From IMG/VR virus record IMGVR_UViG_3300009183_000452, positions 1-20,161 of that record: DNA of 20,161 bases; one strand, written 5' to 3'. Below are positions 3,205 to 12,832 of the stretch, piece after piece. The position numbers were made by a program, and so were the translations under genes. Within the stretch, counting starts at the first letter, position 1, and every line of letters begins with the position of its first letter. The notes below the pieces were generated by a model. The model had not been told where the DNA came from. It ran no database searches and worked only from the letters and a program-made list of their open reading frames with translations. This DNA comes from a virus.

Positions 3205-3855
3205 ATGGCCAGCCAAACACAACAACTTGAGAATCCACCACAGCCGACCCTAGGTTATCCAACCGAGGTGTATGAGCGCAGGCATTTCAATGAGAATAAT
3301 GGCACGCTGAATATTTACTTTAAAAAGCTCTCAACTGTCTTGGGGTCATTGTTTGGACCAAGAGGTGGGCGCTTTATGAATGCGCCCCATGGGGCATTTC
3401 AAGATTCGACCAACCAAGTGGCTGCCAACACCACCACGGCTTATGCGGTCACATTTAACACCACAGACTTTTCCAATGGCGTGACTATTGCCAGTGGATC
3501 AAGGATTACTGTGGCCGATGCCGGAATCTGGAACTTGCAGTTTTCCATTCAGTTTACAAACACGACAAATGCTTCTCAGGATGTGGATGTCTGGTTCCGG
3601 GTCAATGGCACAAATGTGGCCAACTCAAACAGCCGTTTTGGTTTTGCACCAAGAAAAGGTGCTGGAGACCCGTACCACACCATTGCTGCCATCAACTACT
3701 TTGTGAGCTTAAATGCGACTGACTATGTTGAGATAATGTGGAGGCCAACCGACACGGGTGTGTCCATTGAGCAATACGCTGCTGGAACAAGCCCGACACG
3801 GCCAGCAGTCCCATCAGCCATTGTCACAATGAGCTTTGTGTCTAACATTACCTAA
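3205..3855 (+). CDS. Jelly-roll-like virion surface protein
   Basis: A 216-aa protein with a short N-terminal helical part (ERRHFNENNGTLNIYFKKLS) and a GPRGGRFMNAPHGAFQD linker. A beta-rich domain follows from about residue 65 on (AANTTTAYAVTFNTTDFSNG, SRITVADAGIWNLQFSIQFT, DVDVWFRVNG, YVEIMWRPTDTGVSIE). That strand pattern, including 'vadaGiwnlqfs' and 'dvdvWfrvNG', is like the C1q/TNF-type jelly rolls common as phage capsid- or tail-associated appendages. Its place just before the gp10-like tail gene supports a virion role. The fold is fairly likely and the location on the virion is inferred. No SD is seen before the ATG. Confidence 0.7.
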   Translation: MASQTQQLENPPQPTLGYPTEVYERRHFNENNGTLNIYFKKLSTVLGSLFGPRGGRFMNAPHGAFQDSTNQVAANTTTAYAVTFNTTDFSNGVTIASGSRITVADAGIWNLQFSIQFTNTTNASQDVDVWFRVNGTNVANSNSRFGFAPRKGAGDPYHTIAAINYFVSLNATDYVEIMWRPTDTGVSIEQYAAGTSPTRPAVPSAIVTMSFVSNIT

Positions 3856-3863
3856 TTGCCATT

Positions 3864-5342
3864 ATGTACATACCTTTAAAGTTACCCCCAGGTGTTTTCC
3901 GAAATGGTACTGAGTACCAGGCAGCAGGCCGATGGTATGACGCAAACCTAGTGCGCTGGTATGAGGGAACACTGCGCCCCATCAATGGATGGCGCACCAG
4001 GTCAAGCTCACAGATGTCAGGCTCATGCCGAGGCATCATCACTTGGCGCGACAATGCAAATGATCGCTGGATTGCTGCTGGTACGCACACCAAGCTCTAT
4101 GTGATGAACGCGCTTGGGACACTCAAAGACATCACGCCAACGGGCTTCACCACAGGCTACGCAAGCTCTACAGTGCTGACCGGCTATGGCTATAACGCCT
4201 ATGGCATTTTTGCCTATGGTGTAGCAAGGCCAGACACTGGAACACCCATTGCAGCCACCACTTGGTCACTAGACAATTGGGGTGAATACTTGGTGGCTTG
4301 CTCTTCATGGGATGGTAAGATTTATGAGTGGCAATTGGGCTTTTCAACGCCAACAAAAGCGGCAGCCATCACCAATGCACCAGTGAGCAATAAGGCGGTT
4401 TTAGTCACCCAAGAGCGCATTATCTTTGCCCTTGGTGCTGGTGGTAATTCACGCAAGGTGCAATGGTGCGACCAGGAGAACAATACCCAATGGACACCGG
4501 CAGGCGACAACCTTGCAGGCGACTATGAATTAGCAACGCCTGGATCACTTATGGCCGGCAAGCGGGTCAAGGGTGTGAATCTATTGTTTACCGATGTGGA
4601 TGTCCACACGGCCCAGTATGTTGGCGCTCCTTTTGTCTATGGCTTTGAAAAGGCTGCAAGTGGCTGCGGTCTGATTTCGGCCCAAGCAGTGGCGGCTATT
4701 GATACGGCAGCCATTTGGATGAGCAAGTCTGGCTTTTGGATTTATGACGGCTATGTCAAGCCACTGCCAAGCGATGTGTCAGATTACATTTTTGAAAATA
4801 TCAACTTTGCGCAAGCCTCCAAGATTTATGCGGTCCATGTCAGCAAGTTTGGTGAAATCTGGTGGTTTTACCCAAGTGCATCGAGCAATGAAAATGACTC
4901 TTATGTCACTTTTAACTACCGCGAAAATCATTGGAACATTGGCACATTGGCCCGTCTTGCTGGGGTTGATGCTGGGGTGTTTACTTATCCCTTGATGGTG
5001 TCTAGCGATGGCTACATCTACGAGCATGAGGTCGGTTTTGCTTATGACAGCGCCAGCCTTTATGCTGAGTCTGGACCAATCCAATTGGGCAATGGCGATA
5101 ATATTATGAGCATTCGCCAAGTCATCCCCGATGAACAAACTTTGGGTGAGGCTGTGGTTTCATTTAAAACCCGCAATTACCCAACCGGCAGTCAATCTTC
5201 ATTTGGCCCATATACGGCAGCAAACCCAACTTCAGTGAGGTTTTCTGGCCGACAAGTTAACATGAAGGTGACTGGTAACACTTTGGCCGACTGGCGCATT
5301 GGGGTGATGAGACTTGATGCTGTGCCAGCTGGAAAGCGATGA
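3864..5342 (+). CDS. P22 gp10-like tail accessory / packaged-DNA stabilisation protein
   Basis: A 492-aa protein. The N-terminus carries LKLPPGVFRNGTEYQAAGRW followed by YDANLVRWYEGTLRPINGW. This matches what I know of the phage stabilisation protein family (P22 gp10, Pfam Phage_stabilise). The rest is repeated beta-strand sequence with many aromatic/Gly motifs (WIAAGTHTKLYVM, EYLVACSSWDGKIYEW, IWMSKSGFWIYDGY, IWWFYPSASS, YVTFNYRENHWNIG), which fits a beta-propeller-like hub protein. In P22 gp10 sits between the portal/gp4 and the tail needle or tailspike and helps seal the packaged DNA. Its presence is the main argument for a short-tailed virion. It overlaps the next gene by ATGA at 5339-5342. 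Confidence 0.8.
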   Translation: MYIPLKLPPGVFRNGTEYQAAGRWYDANLVRWYEGTLRPINGWRTRSSSQMSGSCRGIITWRDNANDRWIAAGTHTKLYVMNALGTLKDITPTGFTTGYASSTVLTGYGYNAYGIFAYGVARPDTGTPIAATTWSLDNWGEYLVACSSWDGKIYEWQLGFSTPTKAAAITNAPVSNKAVLVTQERIIFALGAGGNSRKVQWCDQENNTQWTPAGDNLAGDYELATPGSLMAGKRVKGVNLLFTDVDVHTAQYVGAPFVYGFEKAASGCGLISAQAVAAIDTAAIWMSKSGFWIYDGYVKPLPSDVSDYIFENINFAQASKIYAVHVSKFGEIWWFYPSASSNENDSYVTFNYRENHWNIGTLARLAGVDAGVFTYPLMVSSDGYIYEHEVGFAYDSASLYAESGPIQLGNGDNIMSIRQVIPDEQTLGEAVVSFKTRNYPTGSQSSFGPYTAANPTSVRFSGRQVNMKVTGNTLADWRIGVMRLDAVPAGKR

Positions 5343-5707
5343 GTGACCAAGAACATTTGGAAAGGTTGCGCCACCATGTGGAGGCTGCCTTAGAATACTC
5401 TGGAGGCACACATAATTTTGATGACATTGCCGAGATGGTCGAAAAGCAGCAATTGCAGCTGTGGCCGGCCAAAGACTCGGTGGTGTTGACAGAGATCATT
5501 GTCTACCCACAACTGAAGAATTTGCATTACTTCTTGGCTGGTGGCGACCTAGATGAACTCTCTCGGATGAGACCATTGATCGAATCCTGGGGCAAATCAC
5601 TTGGATGCACCAGGGTGACTTTGGCAGGCCGAAGAGGCTGGCAAAAGTCATTTTTGAAAGACGAAGGGTACAGTCCACAATGGTCTGTATTGGCAAAGAA
5701 ACTTTAG
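5339..5707 (+). CDS. GNAT-like small virion-associated protein
   Basis: A 122-aa protein. The C-terminal half carries the pattern LHYFLAGGDLDELSRMRPLI, then SWGKSLGCTRVTLAGRRGWQ and a terminal EGYSPQWSVLAKKL. This resembles a shortened GNAT N-acetyltransferase fold used by several phages in the position of T7 gp13 or of other virion assembly proteins. The acetyl-CoA binding loop (Q/RxxGxG/A) is not evident, so catalysis is doubtful. Translation is coupled to the gp10-like gene through ATGA and the gene is followed by the ejection-protein block, which suggests a morphogenesis role. The fold call is moderate and the function unknown. Confidence 0.6.
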   Translation: MSDQEHLERLRHHVEAALEYSGGTHNFDDIAEMVEKQQLQLWPAKDSVVLTEIIVYPQLKNLHYFLAGGDLDELSRMRPLIESWGKSLGCTRVTLAGRRGWQKSFLKDEGYSPQWSVLAKKL

Positions 5708-5716
5708 GGGATAAAT

Positions 5717-8554
5717 ATGGCATCAGCTGCACTGACATACGCATTAAATAATGGCATGACTGCCCAGCAATACTATCAAAACATTTTTGATTTTGTTGCA
5801 GCAAATCAAGGAATGAGTGATGCACAGCTCAAGGCTGAAATGGACAAAGTTGGCGTAAGTGCTGAAGATGTTTCAACAGCCACAGGCGTGGACCTTGCAC
5901 CAGTACAGCAGCGTGTTGAGGCTGTGACGCAAGCAGCGCAAGCAGCGCAAGCAGCGCAAGCAGCGCCAGCAGCTGCGGCAGCTCCAGTAGCATCCCAAGC
6001 TCTTGATTGGGCCTTAAATAATGGCATGAGCCAGCAGCAATTTGATCAACGTATTTTTGATTATGTTGCCCAGAATTTACAAACAAAAACACCAGCAGAA
6101 TTGCGCATTGAGATGGACCGATTGGGCATCAGCGCAGGCGATGTGGCCCGTGCAACTGGGGTCAGCGCTGCTGATGTGCAAACGCAATATGTTGCGGCTG
6201 TGCCAAAAACTCAAGCCGAATTGGTGGCCAAGGCTGCTGCCGATGAAGAATTGGCAGCCCGTACAGCTAGAGACACAACAGCGTCACAAGCCACAATTAC
6301 TGCTGCACAAACTGCGGCAACTACATCAAAAGGATTATTGGCCGATGAAGTAGACAAACAAGCAGCAACAAAAGCTGCGACTGATTTGGCTGCTGCACAA
6401 AAAGCTGAAATGGACAAGTTTGCAGCTGACCAAGCTGCTGCTGCTAAAGCAGCGGCTGCTAAAGCTACTGCTGATGCGGCTGCCAAAACTGCTGCTGATA
6501 AACTGGCTGCTGATGCAGCGGCTAAAGCTGCTTCGGCAAAAGTGGCATCTGACAAGGCGGCTGCTGAAGCCGCTGCCATTGAGGCATCTAATGCAACTGC
6601 TGCACAAAAAGCTGCTGCTGCGGCTGCTGCAAAGGTTGCAGAGGAGAAAGCTGCTGCCGACAAGATTGCATCCGATAAACTGGCTGCTGATGCAGCAGCT
6701 GCAAAGGTTGCGTCTGACAAGGCTGCTGCCGATAAAATTGCGGCTGATAAGGCTGCGGCTGCATCAGCTGCGGCCACAGAAGCTGGATTGAAAGCCAAGG
6801 CTGATGCTGCCGCTAAAGCTATTACTGATAAGGCTGCTGCCGATAAACTGGCTGCTGATGCAGCAGCTGCAAAGATTGCGTCTGATAAGGCTGCTGCCGA
6901 TAAAATTGCAGCTGATAAGGCTGCTACTGCTAAAGCAGCAGAAGAAGCGGCAATTATTGCAGCAGCTGCAAAGATTGCTTCTGATAAAGCAGCGTCAACT
7001 GCTGCAAATACAACAAACACAGGAACGGCAGCGGCAGCTGCCAAAGCTGCTACTGATGCGGCAACCGCAGCAGCAAATGCGGCTACGGCTGCTGCGGCTG
7101 TCACTGGCACTGGAACTACTGCAATCGGCCAATCTGCTGCACTGACATACGCATTAAATAATGGTATGACTCAGCAGCAGTATTACCAAAACATTTTTGA
7201 CTTTTACAAAAACAACTCAGGACTTTCTGACACTGCATTAAGAGCAGAAATGGATCGTTTTGGAGTGAGTCCAGCTGATGTGTCTGCTGCTACTGGCACA
7301 GACTTGGCAACAATTACCGCTAGATATAACGGAACTAGAACTGGAACCACTGGAACCACTGGAGTCACTGGAGTCACTGGAGTCACTGGAGTCACTGGAG
7401 TCACTGGAGTCACTGGAACTGCGACAGCTGCGGCCAAAGCTGCTGCTGACAAGATTGCAGCTGATGCGGCTGCCAAAGCTGCTGCTGATAAGATTGCAGC
7501 TGATGCGGCTGCCAAAGCTGCTGCTGATAAGATCGCTGCCGAAAGACTTGCTGCAACTACTGGCGCACGTTCAACTGGTCTTGCTTGGGCCTTGGCCAAT
7601 GGCATGACGCAAGAGCAGTATTACAAAAACATTTTTGACTTTTACAGCAAAAACTCTGGTCTTTCTGATTCCATGTTGCGGTCTGAAATGGATCGACTTG
7701 GCATTAGCGCACAGGATGTGGCCGCTGCCACTGGTGTGACTGTGGAAAGTGTATTAACACGCTACAACGCAGCCAAGGCTACAACTCAAGCAGAACTGGA
7801 TGTGCAGGCTAAAGCTCAAGCTGATTTGGCAGCGCGTCAAGGTCAATGGAAAGCTCAACAAGACAAAAATGCACTTGATTGGGCTGCCCAGCAAAAAGCC
7901 AATGAAACTGCATGGGCTGCCCAGCAGGCTAAAAATGCTGCCGATTGGGCTGCGCAGCAAAAGCTGACGCAAACTGCACAAAATGCTTATGGTGCAGCAC
8001 CAATGACTCTTGGCCAGAAGTTTGGCAGTTATGAGTCCATTCCAATTGGCGCTCAATATAACCCTGCTGTGACTCCTGGTGGAAAATCACCCTATAGCAT
8101 GGTCATGGGCCAGATGACCCCATTTCAAAACCCTTATGCCAACTTTGTGCCTGGCACGGCACTGGGTGGCTATAACCCAAATCTGTACAGCGACATTGCT
8201 GTCAACAACGCCAATGCAGCAGCGGCCAAATTGGCTGCTGAAAATCAAGCTGCAAATACTGCATTGATGATGTCTGGTGCGGCTGGTGATGGCGGTACGG
8301 CTGGAGATGCGGGTGGAAATACTGGTGGTGGCCCAGGTACTGGTGCAGCCGGTGATGCTGCATTTGCAAGAGGTGGCATGGTCAAAAATCTACTTGGACC
8401 AAATCCGGCAGGACCAGATGATGGCATGGGATATTTAGATCGTGGCGAGTATGTGATCAAAAAGTCAGCAGTCGATAAATATGGCCGTGGACTTTTGGAC
8501 ATGATCAATGAAGGCAAGATGCCAGCCAAAAAAATTAGATCATTACTGGATTAA
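5717..8554 (+). CDS. 945-aa modular virion protein with four repeats and TolA-like helical linkers
   Basis: The protein has four copies of a ~65-residue module at about residues 4-68, 93-160, 473-540 and 619-684. The shared pattern is AL.WALNNGM(T/S)QQQ(Y/F)...IFDF..N.GLSD..LR.EMDR.G(V/I)S..DV..ATGV. Residues ~165-470 are an Ala/Lys/Asp-rich helix (AAADKIAADKAA-type, TolA-like). A collagen-like Gly-Thr-Thr/Gly-Val-Thr tract (about 543-566) and a short Ala/Lys helix precede module four. Residues ~690-760 are Gln/Ala/Trp-rich helix (WAAQQKANETAWAAQQ). The C-terminus (about 886-945) carries GPNPAGPDDGMGYLDRGEYV then IKKSAVDKYGRGLL, an ending I know from many phage virion proteins. A good SD (AGGGGA) precedes the ATG. 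Probably a tape-measure-like, ejection or fibre protein; which one is open. Confidence 0.75.
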   Translation: MASAALTYALNNGMTAQQYYQNIFDFVAANQGMSDAQLKAEMDKVGVSAEDVSTATGVDLAPVQQRVEAVTQAAQAAQAAQAAPAAAAAPVASQALDWALNNGMSQQQFDQRIFDYVAQNLQTKTPAELRIEMDRLGISAGDVARATGVSAADVQTQYVAAVPKTQAELVAKAAADEELAARTARDTTASQATITAAQTAATTSKGLLADEVDKQAATKAATDLAAAQKAEMDKFAADQAAAAKAAAAKATADAAAKTAADKLAADAAAKAASAKVASDKAAAEAAAIEASNATAAQKAAAAAAAKVAEEKAAADKIASDKLAADAAAAKVASDKAAADKIAADKAAAASAAATEAGLKAKADAAAKAITDKAAADKLAADAAAAKIASDKAAADKIAADKAATAKAAEEAAIIAAAAKIASDKAASTAANTTNTGTAAAAAKAATDAATAAANAATAAAAVTGTGTTAIGQSAALTYALNNGMTQQQYYQNIFDFYKNNSGLSDTALRAEMDRFGVSPADVSAATGTDLATITARYNGTRTGTTGTTGVTGVTGVTGVTGVTGVTGTATAAAKAAADKIAADAAAKAAADKIAADAAAKAAADKIAAERLAATTGARSTGLAWALANGMTQEQYYKNIFDFYSKNSGLSDSMLRSEMDRLGISAQDVAAATGVTVESVLTRYNAAKATTQAELDVQAKAQADLAARQGQWKAQQDKNALDWAAQQKANETAWAAQQAKNAADWAAQQKLTQTAQNAYGAAPMTLGQKFGSYESIPIGAQYNPAVTPGGKSPYSMVMGQMTPFQNPYANFVPGTALGGYNPNLYSDIAVNNANAAAAKLAAENQAANTALMMSGAAGDGGTAGDAGGNTGGGPGTGAAGDAAFARGGMVKNLLGPNPAGPDDGMGYLDRGEYVIKKSAVDKYGRGLLDMINEGKMPAKKIRSLLD
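5929..5964 (+). repeat. 9-bp tandem repeat, four copies of GCAAGCAGC
   Basis: Four perfect in-frame copies of GCAAGCAGC encode the Gln-Ala-Ala run between modules 1 and 2 of the 945-aa protein. A degenerate fifth unit follows (GCCAGCAGC). Length change by whole units would keep the frame. Confidence 0.9.
6674..6922 (+). repeat. 81-bp direct repeat pair in the Ala/Lys/Asp helix
   Basis: Bases 6674-6754 and 6842-6922 start GATAAACTGGCTGCTGATGC and differ at only three positions by my reading. They sit 168 bp apart inside the TolA-like helical region of the 945-aa gene. Recombination between them would delete 56 residues in frame. Confidence 0.8.
7343..7414 (+). repeat. 9-bp tandem repeat encoding Gly-Thr-Thr x2 and Gly-Val-Thr x6
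   Basis: Two copies of GGAACCACT (7343-7360) are followed by six identical copies of GGAGTCACT (7361-7414). They give a collagen-like Gly-X-Y tract in the 945-aa protein, directly after module 3. The identity of the six units suggests recent expansion. Confidence 0.95.
7427..7543 (+). repeat. 39-bp tandem repeat, three copies
   Basis: Three 39-bp units begin at 7427, 7466 and 7505. The core is GCTGCCAAAGCTGCTGCTGA and the unit encodes Ala-Ala-Ala-Lys-Ala-Ala-Ala-Asp-Lys-Ile-Ala-Ala-Asp/Glu. Units 1 and 2 differ at only a few positions, and the third degenerates at its end. They link the Gly-Val-Thr tract to module 4. Confidence 0.85.
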
Positions 8555-8565
8555 GGGGAAAGAAT

Positions 8566-9531
8566 ATGTCTAAAGGTGGAAGCACACAAACAAGCTCAAC
8601 CTCGATTGATCCACAGATCAAAGAGGCTTTCTTAGCCAATTTCCAGCAGGCCCAAGGTGTTGCCGGTGCATTGCCGATCCAGCAAATCGCTGGTTTTAAT
8701 CCAATGTACCAGGCAGGCGAGGAAGCTCTGGTCAATACCGGCCTCGCTGGCCCAGGCATTACTGGCACTGACATTGCAGCGCAAATGGCCGGTTATGGCG
8801 GGTTCTACCAGCCTGCAACAATTACTGCGCAGCAGACCAATCTTGGCCTTGGTCAAGGACCAGGCACGATTGGCTCATACATGAACCCATACAGCAGCAT
8901 GGTGCGTGAAAACGCATTGGGTGATTTGGAGTCTGCACGCCAAGCGGCCATCAGGCAGACTGGCCAGCAGGCCATGCAAGCCAAGGCATTTGGTGGATCA
9001 CGCCAAGGTGTGGCCGAGGCTTTGACAAATGCAGGGTTTGCCAAACAGGCTGCCACACTTGGAACAACTTTAAACGAGCAGGCATTCAATCAAGCCATGG
9101 CCATGCAGCAGGCTGACATTGGCCGCAGATCAGCAGCCGACATTGCCAACCAGCAAGCTGGCTTGCAGGGTGCACAGTTTAGATTGGGAGCAGCTAACCA
9201 GCTTGGCGGCTTGGCAGCGCAGCAGCAAGCATTGCGTCTTGGTGGCGCTCAAGCAGTCATGGGCGCTGGCGGTGCGCGTCAGGCTCTGGAGCAGCAACAA
9301 ATGGATGCAATCCGAAATGTCGGCTTGCAGCGTCTGGGTGTGGTTCAGTCTTCATTGGGTGCGCAGCCTGCAAATCTTGGAATGCAGTCTGTCACGCCCC
9401 AATATTCAAACCCAGCAGCTGGCGCTTTAGGTGGCGCATTGGCTGGTGCAAAACTTGGCAGCGTTATTCCTGGCATTGGCACTGCGGCAGGCGCAATTGG
9501 TGGCGGTATTCTTGGCCTTTTCGGCGGTTAA
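8566..9531 (+). CDS. 321-aa Gln/Ala/Gly-rich internal virion (ejection-type) protein
   Basis: The protein starts MSKGGSTQTSSTSIDPQIKE and continues with Gln/Ala-rich helical sequence (RQAAIRQTGQQAMQAKAFGG, QQADIGRRSAADIANQQAGL). It ends in a glycine-zipper-like hydrophobic tail at residues ~283-321 (GALGGALAGAKLGSVIPGIG then GGGILGLFGG). Helical Gln/Ala-rich proteins with such membrane-active tails are typical of podovirus ejection (DNA-transfer) proteins. The neighbours on both sides have the same character and the same TAAGGGG-type SD spacing. I infer that it is packaged in the virion and injected to help form a conduit. No enzymatic motif is seen. Confidence 0.65.
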   Translation: MSKGGSTQTSSTSIDPQIKEAFLANFQQAQGVAGALPIQQIAGFNPMYQAGEEALVNTGLAGPGITGTDIAAQMAGYGGFYQPATITAQQTNLGLGQGPGTIGSYMNPYSSMVRENALGDLESARQAAIRQTGQQAMQAKAFGGSRQGVAEALTNAGFAKQAATLGTTLNEQAFNQAMAMQQADIGRRSAADIANQQAGLQGAQFRLGAANQLGGLAAQQQALRLGGAQAVMGAGGARQALEQQQMDAIRNVGLQRLGVVQSSLGAQPANLGMQSVTPQYSNPAAGALGGALAGAKLGSVIPGIGTAAGAIGGGILGLFGG

Positions 9532-9541
9532 GGGGTAAAAA

Positions 9542-10963
9542 ATGGCAACTGAATTTGATTTGGCATCGTTTTTCGGTGGCGGTGGTGACAGCGAAATTGA
9601 AAAACTGCTGACACCCAAGCAAAGAGAACAATGGTCTATGCAGGCCACACTGGCTGCTGCTGCCCAATTGCTCCAAGCCGGTGGCCGTGGTCCACAACGC
9701 ATTGGTCTTGGCCAAGCACTTGGATCAGCTTTGCAGGCTGGCCAAGGTGCTTATGAGAAGGGCACTGCTGGTGCGGTTCAAAATTTGCTTTTAGGTCAGA
9801 AATTGCAAGAAGGTGCGCGTCTTAACGAATATCAAAAGGCTTTGCTTGGTACGCCAACAACGGCAGCAGCTGCACCATCAGCGGCTATGCAGGCCATGGC
9901 TGCACCAGTGGATCAAGTAGGCATGGGTCCATCACCACAACGTGCTGAATTGATGACTCAGATTGAAGCAAAAGCACCACAAAGTGCTGATGAAAAAAGA
10001 TTTGCAGAATTGATGCGCAAGGCTGATGTGGCCAATGCATACAACCGGCCAGAGGATGCTGACAAATACTTGAATCAGGCTTACAAGATCAAGCCACCAG
10101 AAGAATTCAGCACAACGCCTAATTTTGGAATGAGTGCAACTGGTACGCCAATTTCCTATGTCTTGAGCAAGGCTGGTGGAATGCGTTTGCTCAATGTACA
10201 GAGAAGTCCTGAGTTTAATTACACCGATACTGGTGCATTTATCAGTGTGCGTGATAAGGCTACAAACAAAGAAATCGAGCAAATTCCAAAGAGCATGACT
10301 CCTGGGGAAAAAGCCAGCAATTGGATTGCCCAGCAAAATCTTGGTATTGCTCAAGGTAATTATGCCCGTGGTGCGACAGAGATCAGAGAAACCCCAGAAG
10401 GCTTTGCATACATACCCAAAATACCTGGTGGTATTGTCATGCCAGTCATGGGCGCTACTGGTCAAGTCAAAGGTGTTTCTGGTGGTCAACCTACAGAAGC
10501 TCAGTCAAATGCTGCTGGATTTGCCCAGCGCATGGAATTGTCCAATAGCATTATTAACAGTTTGCCTGCTGGCTCACAACCAGGCGCAGGGACTCGCACC
10601 CTTGAGGCCATTCCGTTTGTGGGTGGTGCAATGGCCCGTAGTGGCCAAAGTGTCGATACCCAGAAATTTGACCAAGCTGCGCAAGATTGGATTCGTGCCA
10701 AGCTGCGCAAAGAGTCTGGTGCTGCTATTGGCAAAGACGAGATGGTCCAAGAGTACAACACCTATTTCCCGCAAGTTGGCGACACCCCAGAAAAACTGGC
10801 TCAAAAGGCAGAAGCAAGGCGTGTGGCTACCATTGGTATGCAAAAATCAGCAGGCAAAGCCTATGAGCCTTATACGCCAGCACCGGCAGCAGCGGGTGCG
10901 CCAACAACTCCAACTGCTGAAAGACGCATGATTTTCCGCAATGGCCGATTTGAATTTGAGTGA
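9542..10963 (+). CDS. 473-aa virion protein with LRKESGAAI motif
   Basis: The N-terminal ~110 residues are Ala/Gln/Gly-rich helix (QATLAAAAQLLQAGGRG, GLGQALGSALQAGQGAYEKG). The C-terminal third has the conserved block AAQDWIRAKLRKESGAAIGK followed by EY..YFPQVGDTPEKLAQKA (about residues 378-425), which I recognise from many phage internal or ejection and tape-measure-associated proteins. It ends FRNGRFEFE. An SD (AAGGGG) lies 6 bp before the ATG. It sits between two other ejection-type genes, so co-packaging inside the capsid is likely. The biochemical role of the ESGAAI block is not known to me. Confidence 0.7.
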   Translation: MATEFDLASFFGGGGDSEIEKLLTPKQREQWSMQATLAAAAQLLQAGGRGPQRIGLGQALGSALQAGQGAYEKGTAGAVQNLLLGQKLQEGARLNEYQKALLGTPTTAAAAPSAAMQAMAAPVDQVGMGPSPQRAELMTQIEAKAPQSADEKRFAELMRKADVANAYNRPEDADKYLNQAYKIKPPEEFSTTPNFGMSATGTPISYVLSKAGGMRLLNVQRSPEFNYTDTGAFISVRDKATNKEIEQIPKSMTPGEKASNWIAQQNLGIAQGNYARGATEIRETPEGFAYIPKIPGGIVMPVMGATGQVKGVSGGQPTEAQSNAAGFAQRMELSNSIINSLPAGSQPGAGTRTLEAIPFVGGAMARSGQSVDTQKFDQAAQDWIRAKLRKESGAAIGKDEMVQEYNTYFPQVGDTPEKLAQKAEARRVATIGMQKSAGKAYEPYTPAPAAAGAPTTPTAERRMIFRNGRFEFE

Positions 10964-10969
10964 GGCAGT

Positions 10970-12832
10970 ATGAAAAAAATCAACATCGAAGGCATTGGAA
11001 CTTTAGAGTTTCCAGACACTGCAACTGATCAGCAAATCTCTGCCTTTATCAATTCCACTGCACCAGCAGAATTGATGAAAATTGCGTCAACCCAAACACC
11101 AGACACATTGGGTCGAGAGGCTGGTTTGGCTATTCGCCCCATGGCCCAAACAGTATTGACTGCTGGCGGCCTGCTGCCTATGGTGGTCGATCCTATGGTC
11201 AATTTTTTCAACTTGGCTGCTGGAACAAAGATTCCAACGCAAAGCCAAGCGGTTGAAAAGACATTGACAGGCATTGGTTTTCCAGAGGCTAGAACGCCCC
11301 AAGAGCGAATCATTCAAGATGTGGCCACTGCCGGTTATGGCACAAGCGGCCTTGCCCGTGCTGCCGGTGAAGTCGCCCCAAAGCTGCCAGGCATGGCAAA
11401 AGAATTGGCTCAATTCTTTGCGCAAAGCCCCAAGGCCCAAACCGCGGCTGCATTGACAGCATCCACTGCTGGTGGAATGCTGCGCGAAGGTGGAGCAAGT
11501 CCAGCAGCCCAAGTGGGCGGTGCAATGTTGGCCGGCATGGTCGCACCTGGTGGTCCAAAACTGTCACCTACACAAAGAATATTAGAAGCTCCTGGTGCAA
11601 TGGTTAAACCATTTACACAAGCAGGCCGTGAAACCATTGTTGGTAATGTTTTAAATCGACTGGCCACAAATCCAGAGCAAGCAGCACTTAATTTGCAGCA
11701 GGCCCAGCCACTTGTTCCAGGTGTGCGTGTTACCACAGCAGCTGGTGCGCGTGATCCTGGTCTGGCTGCGGCTGAGACTGCGATCAGGGCATTGGACCAG
11801 TCTGGTGCATTCCCAAGCGTGCTGTCTGCAAATCAGCAGGCTTTGCTTGAATCATTCAGAAAGCTCGGTGGCCGTGGTGGTGATGTGACCACACCAGGCT
11901 CTATTCCCTACGCTGAAGCCAAGCGCACCAGTGTAACTGCCCCATTGCGTGAGTCGGCATTTGCCAACAAGCAGCCAGTCAGCATTGAGCCAATTTCAAA
12001 CGCTATCTCTGGCATCATGTCTAACCCTGCAACGCAGCGTAAGACAGTTGATGAGGCGATGTCTTATGTCAGTGGCTTGCTTAATAAACGAGTCAACCCT
12101 GAGACTGGCACGATTGACCCCATGGCTTTGTACAGTGTCAGAAAAGACATCACAGATGCCATGGCTGGAAAGTTGGCCGGAGACCAAGCAAATTTGCGTC
12201 TAGCCAAAGGCCAAATGGCTGAGTTGTTGCCAGTCATTGACAATGCAATTGAGGCTGGCGCTCCAGGCTTTAAAAATTACATGACTAAATTTGAAAAGTC
12301 ATCTAGTGCCATTGACCAAATGCGCTTGATGCAGGGCATTGAGTCCAAGGTTACAACTGGCCAGCCTAATTTGATGACGGGTGAGCCAGTCTTGGCAGCC
12401 AGTGCATTGCGCAGGCAATTGGCCAGTAAGGCTGAAGAGATAGGCACTCAACTATCACCATCAGCGCAACGCAAACTAGACAACATTATTGATGAGATCA
12501 ATCGTGGTCAGGCTGCAACTGCACCAGGCGTGAAAGCACCTGGTTCAAATACATTCCAGAATATGAGCATGGGAAATCTGATTGGCCGTGTGTTTAGCGA
12601 GTCATTGGCTGACAACACCACACTGCGCACTATGACCAGACCACTAGACTTTTTGTATAAATTGCCTGACCAGCAAATTCAGCAGCTGCTGGTGGAGTCA
12701 ATGCTTGATCCCAAACTGGCTGCATCCATGATGGGCAAGGCCAACATGATGAAGGTCGAGCCATTGGCTAAGTCACTGCGCAAAAAGGCTGAAGAGCTTG
12801 GATTTGGCGCTGCTATTGGCGCACAAGAATAA
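10970..12832 (+). CDS. 620-aa internal virion / ejection protein
   Basis: The N-terminal ~30 residues (KINIEGIGTLEFPDTATDQQ) match a short module that I have seen at the start of many phage internal virion proteins. Residues ~60-90 (TVLTAGGLLPMVVDPMVNFF) and 150-195 (Ala/Gly-rich) are hydrophobic and may contact membrane. The rest is predominantly helical without catalytic motifs that I can identify. It is the last gene of the rightward late block. Its stop abuts the 3' end of the leftward operon with no gap. Most likely it is ejected with the genome, an inference from position and composition. Confidence 0.65.
   Translation: MKKINIEGIGTLEFPDTATDQQISAFINSTAPAELMKIASTQTPDTLGREAGLAIRPMAQTVLTAGGLLPMVVDPMVNFFNLAAGTKIPTQSQAVEKTLTGIGFPEARTPQERIIQDVATAGYGTSGLARAAGEVAPKLPGMAKELAQFFAQSPKAQTAAALTASTAGGMLREGGASPAAQVGGAMLAGMVAPGGPKLSPTQRILEAPGAMVKPFTQAGRETIVGNVLNRLATNPEQAALNLQQAQPLVPGVRVTTAAGARDPGLAAAETAIRALDQSGAFPSVLSANQQALLESFRKLGGRGGDVTTPGSIPYAEAKRTSVTAPLRESAFANKQPVSIEPISNAISGIMSNPATQRKTVDEAMSYVSGLLNKRVNPETGTIDPMALYSVRKDITDAMAGKLAGDQANLRLAKGQMAELLPVIDNAIEAGAPGFKNYMTKFEKSSSAIDQMRLMQGIESKVTTGQPNLMTGEPVLAASALRRQLASKAEEIGTQLSPSAQRKLDNIIDEINRGQAATAPGVKAPGSNTFQNMSMGNLIGRVFSESLADNTTLRTMTRPLDFLYKLPDQQIQQLLVESMLDPKLAASMMGKANMMKVEPLAKSLRKKAEELGFGAAIGAQE

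Follow-up and report, generated by a model that had tools for sequence, protein, structure and literature searches.

A modular protein encoded in the DNA-ejection cluster of a short-tailed phage may be a hypervariable internal-virion protein

The window analysed here, a 20,161-nucleotide stretch of the IMG/VR virus record IMGVR_UViG_3300009183_000452, encodes a 945-residue modular protein at positions 5717–8554 of the plus strand; the frame is open throughout, with an AGGGG ribosome-binding motif 5' of the ATG. We favour the interpretation, to which we give an even chance, that this is a hypervariable accessory internal-virion protein of the ejection set of a P22/LUZ24-type podophage. This reading is based on the following: (i) the position of the gene in a cassette between phrog_3287 and phrog_4287-type genes, an order repeated in the diverged L025 lineage of relatives, (ii) a fusion in L026, embedding in L109 and L119, and the particle proteome of a syntenic cluster in phage phiM5, and (iii) a tape-measure tail motif, the occurrence of a single module protein in each of 22 records, and the acidic nature of the modules. 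The gene and its parts are as follows.

5717–8554, plus strand: modular-protein gene, stop codon included; an equal ORF is present in L002 and L003
5717–5926, plus strand: module M1, residues 1–70, by pairwise alignment; tree partners are the first modules of L004, L018 and L107 (support 91/94)
5987–6202, plus strand: module M2, residues 91–162, by pairwise alignment; tree partners L004_m2, L006_m1 and L008_m1 (99/91)
6212–7129, plus strand: long Ala/Lys/Asp (TolA-like) predicted helical spacer, residues 166–471, 48% Ala
7130–7339, plus strand: module M3, residues 472–541, by pairwise alignment; without a close partner in the module tree
7343–7423, plus strand: collagen-like G-x-T/A triplet tract, (GVT)n, residues 543–569; a 9-nt direct repeat
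7427–7567, plus strand: short Ala/Lys/Asp helix spacer, residues 571–617, by sequence composition
7568–7777, plus strand: module M4, residues 618–687, with predicted structure; tree partners L004_m3, L005_m2 and L006_m2 (99/93)
7670–7777, plus strand: HTH-like three-helix part of M4, residues 652–687, by model helices H36–46, H50–57 and H61–74 and HTH profile matches
7778–8005, plus strand: Ala/Gln/Trp-rich predicted helix after M4, residues 688–763, by sequence
8018–8221, plus strand: conserved C-terminal core (SIPIGAQYNP...GGYNPNLY), residues 768–835, 70% mean pairwise identity
8372–8551, plus strand: conserved tail GGMVKNLLGPNPAGPDDGMGYLDRGEYVIKKSAVDKYGRGLLDMINEGK..., residues 886–945, with tape-measure likeness; last 45 residues at 86% mean pairwise identity

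Alignment of the six module pairs gave local scores of 151–228 against shuffled means of 24–26 (SD 4–5), with 33–45 identical residues per pair among four modules of about 65–70 residues each. The four modules described in an earlier, sequence-only reading are thereby borne out, with boundaries within ~3 residues and z values of 31–44 for all pairs. The spacing by ~300 residues of Ala/Lys/Asp helix proposed in the same reading holds between M2 and M3, where the spacer comprises 306 residues with 37 Lys and Arg versus 38 Asp and Glu, but not between M1 and M2, which are separated by an Ala-rich link of ~20 residues. M3 and M4 are joined by nine G-x-T/A triplets, the collagen-like tract that had been recognized at the outset, followed by the short Ala/Lys/Asp helix. 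Since L002 and L003, independent IMG/VR contigs from other metagenomes, match the window at 99.96–99.98% across the repeats, the array is no assembly artefact. A sequence search of the PDB with the protein returned no match.

The gene is part of an ejection cluster of the short-tailed type, the other members of which are listed below.

3864–5342, plus strand: virion structural protein, phrog_3287 (P22 gp10-like stabilization protein), E 3.6e-85
5339–5707, plus strand: small protein whose syntenic counterparts in related phages are annotated 'acetyltransferase'
8566–9531, plus strand: DNA-ejection-like protein (phrog_4287), E 0.005 over nearly the full length
9542–10963, plus strand: hypervariable protein g9542, by place only at the position of the phiM5 'putative internal virion protein' genes
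10970–12832, plus strand: large protein closing the cluster, by synteny at the position of relatives' internal virion/DNA-transfer genes

Isolate homologues of the first of these are annotated 'phage stabilization protein' or structural protein, the latter having been found in the phiM5 particle, and the phiM5 'putative internal virion proteins' are likewise present in the particle proteome. Relatives of the 8566–9531 product at the equal position match phrog_4287 at 5.7e-9 and 1.3e-11; the 10970–12832 product gave no convincing family match. Among the first 148 loci, homologues of the upstream and downstream neighbours were present in 123 and 108, respectively, many contigs ending before the neighbour was reached. 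In the diverged L025 group the phrog_4287 ejection gene comes next in 38 of 39 cases, a count that takes in one row of the window group and one fused protein. The association extends to single polypeptides: in L026 the module protein and the ejection-gene homologue are fused as a single ORF, and in L119 and L109 the modules lie within a protein that matches phrog_598, 'DNA ejection' (E 1e-15 and 9e-8). Ejection-family homology was reached only by the last two relatives, via their flanking segments; the window protein itself has no match to an ejection PHROG at E 0.1 and none to an ejection or tape-measure family. Elsewhere in the window, positions 3205–3855 (g3205), which adjoin the stabilization protein gene, encode 216 residues with a weak match to the BclA C-terminal domain (BclA_C, C1q-like), and the sequence suggests that the product is possibly a small trimeric virion protein.

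The slot is not always occupied by a module protein. Sinorhizobium phage phiM5 has the equivalent cluster without the module gene, and since three related isolates (phiM5, OspP_OH and MJing1) lack a gene here, ejection does not generally depend on the module protein. In MW202879, a relative with a 66% identical stabilization protein, the slot is occupied by a Gly/Pro-rich ORF (209 residues, unannotated) without modules (L184:9044-9673). In one group, four records (G014, G015, G019 and G020) encode a module protein with a different C-terminus; in G015 (L181:4606-5697) the module gene is flanked by the portal gene on one side and the scaffold/capsid genes on the other, and the ejection gene remains in the tail cluster.

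Scans of viral sequences yielded 112 distinct module-bearing ORFs, plus about 40 additional complete ORFs of L025 type (>150 distinct relatives). Exactly one module protein was present in each of 22 virus records. Nearly all relatives with readable flanks sit in virion gene clusters, and no non-structural module protein was found, which agrees with the initial description of a virion-cluster protein with undescribed helical modules. The relatives carry 1–4 modules on spacers of <20 to >300 residues that are Ala-helical, Pro-rich or nearly absent. In the L025-group protein L201:5001-7652, the variable middle contains paired Cys repeats CGTGYHWDEATQSCV that match the chitin-binding domain PF01607 (2.9e-6). 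Isolate phages gave no module match with the whole protein at E 0.01 or with a two-module consensus at E 1; a 49-residue core consensus searched to E 10 gave weak matches only, mostly to HTH or DNA-binding proteins. Scans of bacterial genomes produced no confirmed module relative, and therefore no host is assigned.

The C-terminus of the window protein contains a GEYVI...KYG motif region and resembles stretches of siphophage tape-measure proteins from Mycobacterium and Vibrio phages, which supports the earlier view of it as a known phage virion ending. The ends of the L025-group proteins match syntenic isolate proteins, two of which are annotated tail tape measure; these keep the tail motif and lack the modules, so that the modules are best seen as having been added to a slot protein of a known type. 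The proposal that a fixed beads-on-rod layout sets a length is not supported: module number and spacer length vary as described, syntenic isolate proteins do without modules altogether, and the relatives span about 320 to >1300 residues, differing widely even between close relatives, so that no length rule is apparent. No membrane-like segment was found in the window protein (no 19-residue window >1.6). Two further features were observed at this locus in relatives. A syntenic protein of phage DSL-LC04 (L268:4880-7159), which carries a tail tape measure annotation, contains several copies of a different repeat, YAGMDLSSAQGTLGGPS, unrelated to the module. In L060, L062–L070 and L074 (e.g., L065:2604-4142) a Hint/mini-intein-like domain with the signature CVDPDVHILL...ITHKFLT...HTYISEGLVSHN followed by K lies directly before the conserved C-terminal tail; the Pfam intein match is weak (0.001), and HN is followed by a residue other than C, S or T, so that the domain probably cleaves instead of splicing.

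When 41 loci were compared, three flanking genes had a mean pairwise identity of 84–92%, against values of 54% in the module protein and 43% in g9542. Within the module protein it was 45% in the N-terminal part, 70% in the core and 86% in the last 45 residues. In the module tree the modules cluster by type, not by the protein that carries them, and L145 is chimaeric, made up of stretches resembling L012, L107 and L098 at ~80% DNA identity; on this sequence evidence, modules have been shuffled between proteins. The divergence of the module protein did not co-vary with that of g9542 (partial Mantel r -0.01, p 0.59), and the two diversify independently. Internal virion genes of this phage group have been described as divergent and mosaic (PMC10386132), which is the pattern seen for the module protein.

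Hypervariability and domain shuffling beside conserved neighbours are also typical of host-contact proteins, and they lend some weight to a somewhat unlikely alternative, namely that the protein is an external fibre or decoration on the tail or capsid. Its shaft would be formed by the long Ala helices, Pro-rich stretches and collagen-like triplets, and the modules would serve as variable tips for the host surface or glycans. The presence of the collagen-like tract, and of Cys-rich repeats scoring as a chitin-binding domain in one group of relatives, fits this as well. However, relatives are fused to or embedded in DNA-ejection proteins, and a separate fibre-like gene is present in g3205. Moreover, most fibres have an N-terminal anchor and a C-terminal tip, and the arrangement here, with N-terminal modules and a conserved C-terminal tail, is the reverse. 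The DNA-ejection set, rather than a fibre, is the best-linked location.

Structure prediction for a single module, a check proposed at the start, gave a five-helix AlphaFold2 model of M4 with good confidence (26 module sequences, mean pLDDT 88.9), the last three helices of which make up an HTH-like unit. In a full-length model of a 358-residue relative, the modules were of moderate confidence and the C-terminal half mostly low (pLDDT 52.7). Among 26 single modules, 13 matched phrog_686 (HTH) weakly in a consistent register (best 2.6e-5), nine matched Pfam HTH_3, also weakly and in register, and 11 matched LEM weakly. The best PDB matches of the module profile included Aca3 (0.005), the repeat protein 8vd6, ORF55 of SIRV1, SmtB and the 434 repressor. 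Predicted structure and profile matches therefore both place a three-helix HTH core in register within the module, in line with the notion of a small helical binding domain. A Foldseek search of the PDB with the module gave nothing below E 0.001, several of the weak matches being HTH proteins, and a search of BFVD returned three uncharacterised proteins of uncultured phages with good local fits. No entry in Pfam, PHROGs or NCBIfam describes the module as such. Membership in LEM (PF03020), a eukaryotic nuclear family, was considered and rejected: single modules all fall below the Pfam cut-off (best E 0.00099), and only the summed score of the whole protein passes (34.4 vs. a cut-off of 24).

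These matches raise the prospect of a DNA-binding virion protein whose modules, as true helix-turn-helix domains, would coat or organise the packaged DNA or grip DNA during ejection, and the T7 ejection proteins gp15 and gp16-C, which bind DNA, offer a precedent (PMC8954989). We consider this quite unlikely. The net charge of 176 distinct modules averages -1.56 (range -6 to +1), the 12 residues after the TG pair are neutral (mean charge +0.06), and on these averages the modules show neither a basic DNA-contact helix nor a net basic character; the Ala/Lys/Asp spacer is neutral as well, and the PDB offered no fold match below E 0.001. Because the modules are acidic to neutral, with no net charge after TG, they are not read as ordinary DNA-binding domains, and DNA binding as their chief role has been lowered in rank.

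An improbable alternative is that the protein is an ejected counter-defence or host-takeover payload, comparable to P1 DarA/Hdf or T4 IpI, with modules that would block variable host proteins. An accessory gene that is absent from related isolates, hypervariable, modular and present once per genome would suit such a role, for which reviewed precedents among ejected proteins exist (PMC8402733); against it, the libraries used revealed no known anti-defence domain. That the gene is simply a passenger of low complexity in the late operon, without a virion role, is suggested by its absence from some relatives and the ease with which repeats expand, but is very improbable, given that core positions are conserved in 172 distinct module copies, that the tail keeps 86% identity despite divergence elsewhere in the protein, and that each of 22 records has a single copy of the gene, also where it has been relocated.

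The interpretation as an accessory ejection-set protein is weakened by the lack of a family match, the isolates without the gene, the absence of a membrane segment, the different C-terminus in four records and the relocated gene of G015, and a divergence that does not track that of g9542. Overall, the evidence supports the structural-protein reading made at the outset, and we infer that the protein is located in the virion and is ejected, its modules binding protein rather than DNA. In the proposed mechanism, the conserved C-terminal part, with its tape-measure-type end, would dock the protein to conserved tail or ejection proteins, and the variable N-terminal part would form a rod of extended spacers with 1–4 HTH-like helical modules acting as exchangeable protein-binding beads. 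The protein would be carried inside the virion and leave with the ejection proteins on infection, after which the modules could contact a host- or phage-specific partner. It is conceivable, though unlikely, that this represents a new class: an ejected podophage protein with shufflable HTH-derived, non-DNA-binding modules, interchangeable rigid spacers and a tape-measure-type tail anchor, re-assorted to match variable periplasmic or cytoplasmic targets of the host.

Few parts of the virion change as fast, or are as poorly understood, as the ejection-set proteins. In this family from abundant freshwater phages, one slot of the cluster evolves by swapping a defined, foldable module of ~65 residues, and most genes around it stand nearly still. 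The module, unrecognised as such by Pfam, PHROGs and NCBIfam and now named, is a small domain suited to expression and partner screening, for which a natural collection of one- to four-module variants is available.

Among known systems, the TolA-like Ala/Lys helices share with the window protein a long Ala/Lys/Asp helical composition, and the likeness is compositional only. The LSD..LR.EM...GI segment of the module resembles helix 1 of the LEM domain, but a third helix is present in the module model. The three-helix arrangement and the conserved TG...V pattern are shared, in register, with HTH domains (XRE/HTH_3, sigma region 4 and Aca3); unlike them, the modules are acidic or neutral rather than basic, have extra N-terminal helices, and are repeated in proteins of a virion cluster. 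Tape-measure proteins have the tail motif in common (window ...LDRGEYVIKKSAVDKYGRGLLDMINEGK vs. Aegeus ...VSNGEFVIKAASVSKYGSSLMHAINEGK), whereas the cluster here is of the short-tailed type and the window protein lacks a membrane-like segment. With respect to the podophage internal virion or DNA-ejection proteins (P22 gp7/gp20/gp16, T7 gp14–16; phrog_598, phrog_4287), the window protein is without detectable homology, contains a module in several copies and is missing in related isolates; yet it shares their gene cluster, its relatives adjoin them, fuse with them or are embedded in them, and it is divergent and mosaic, as they are.
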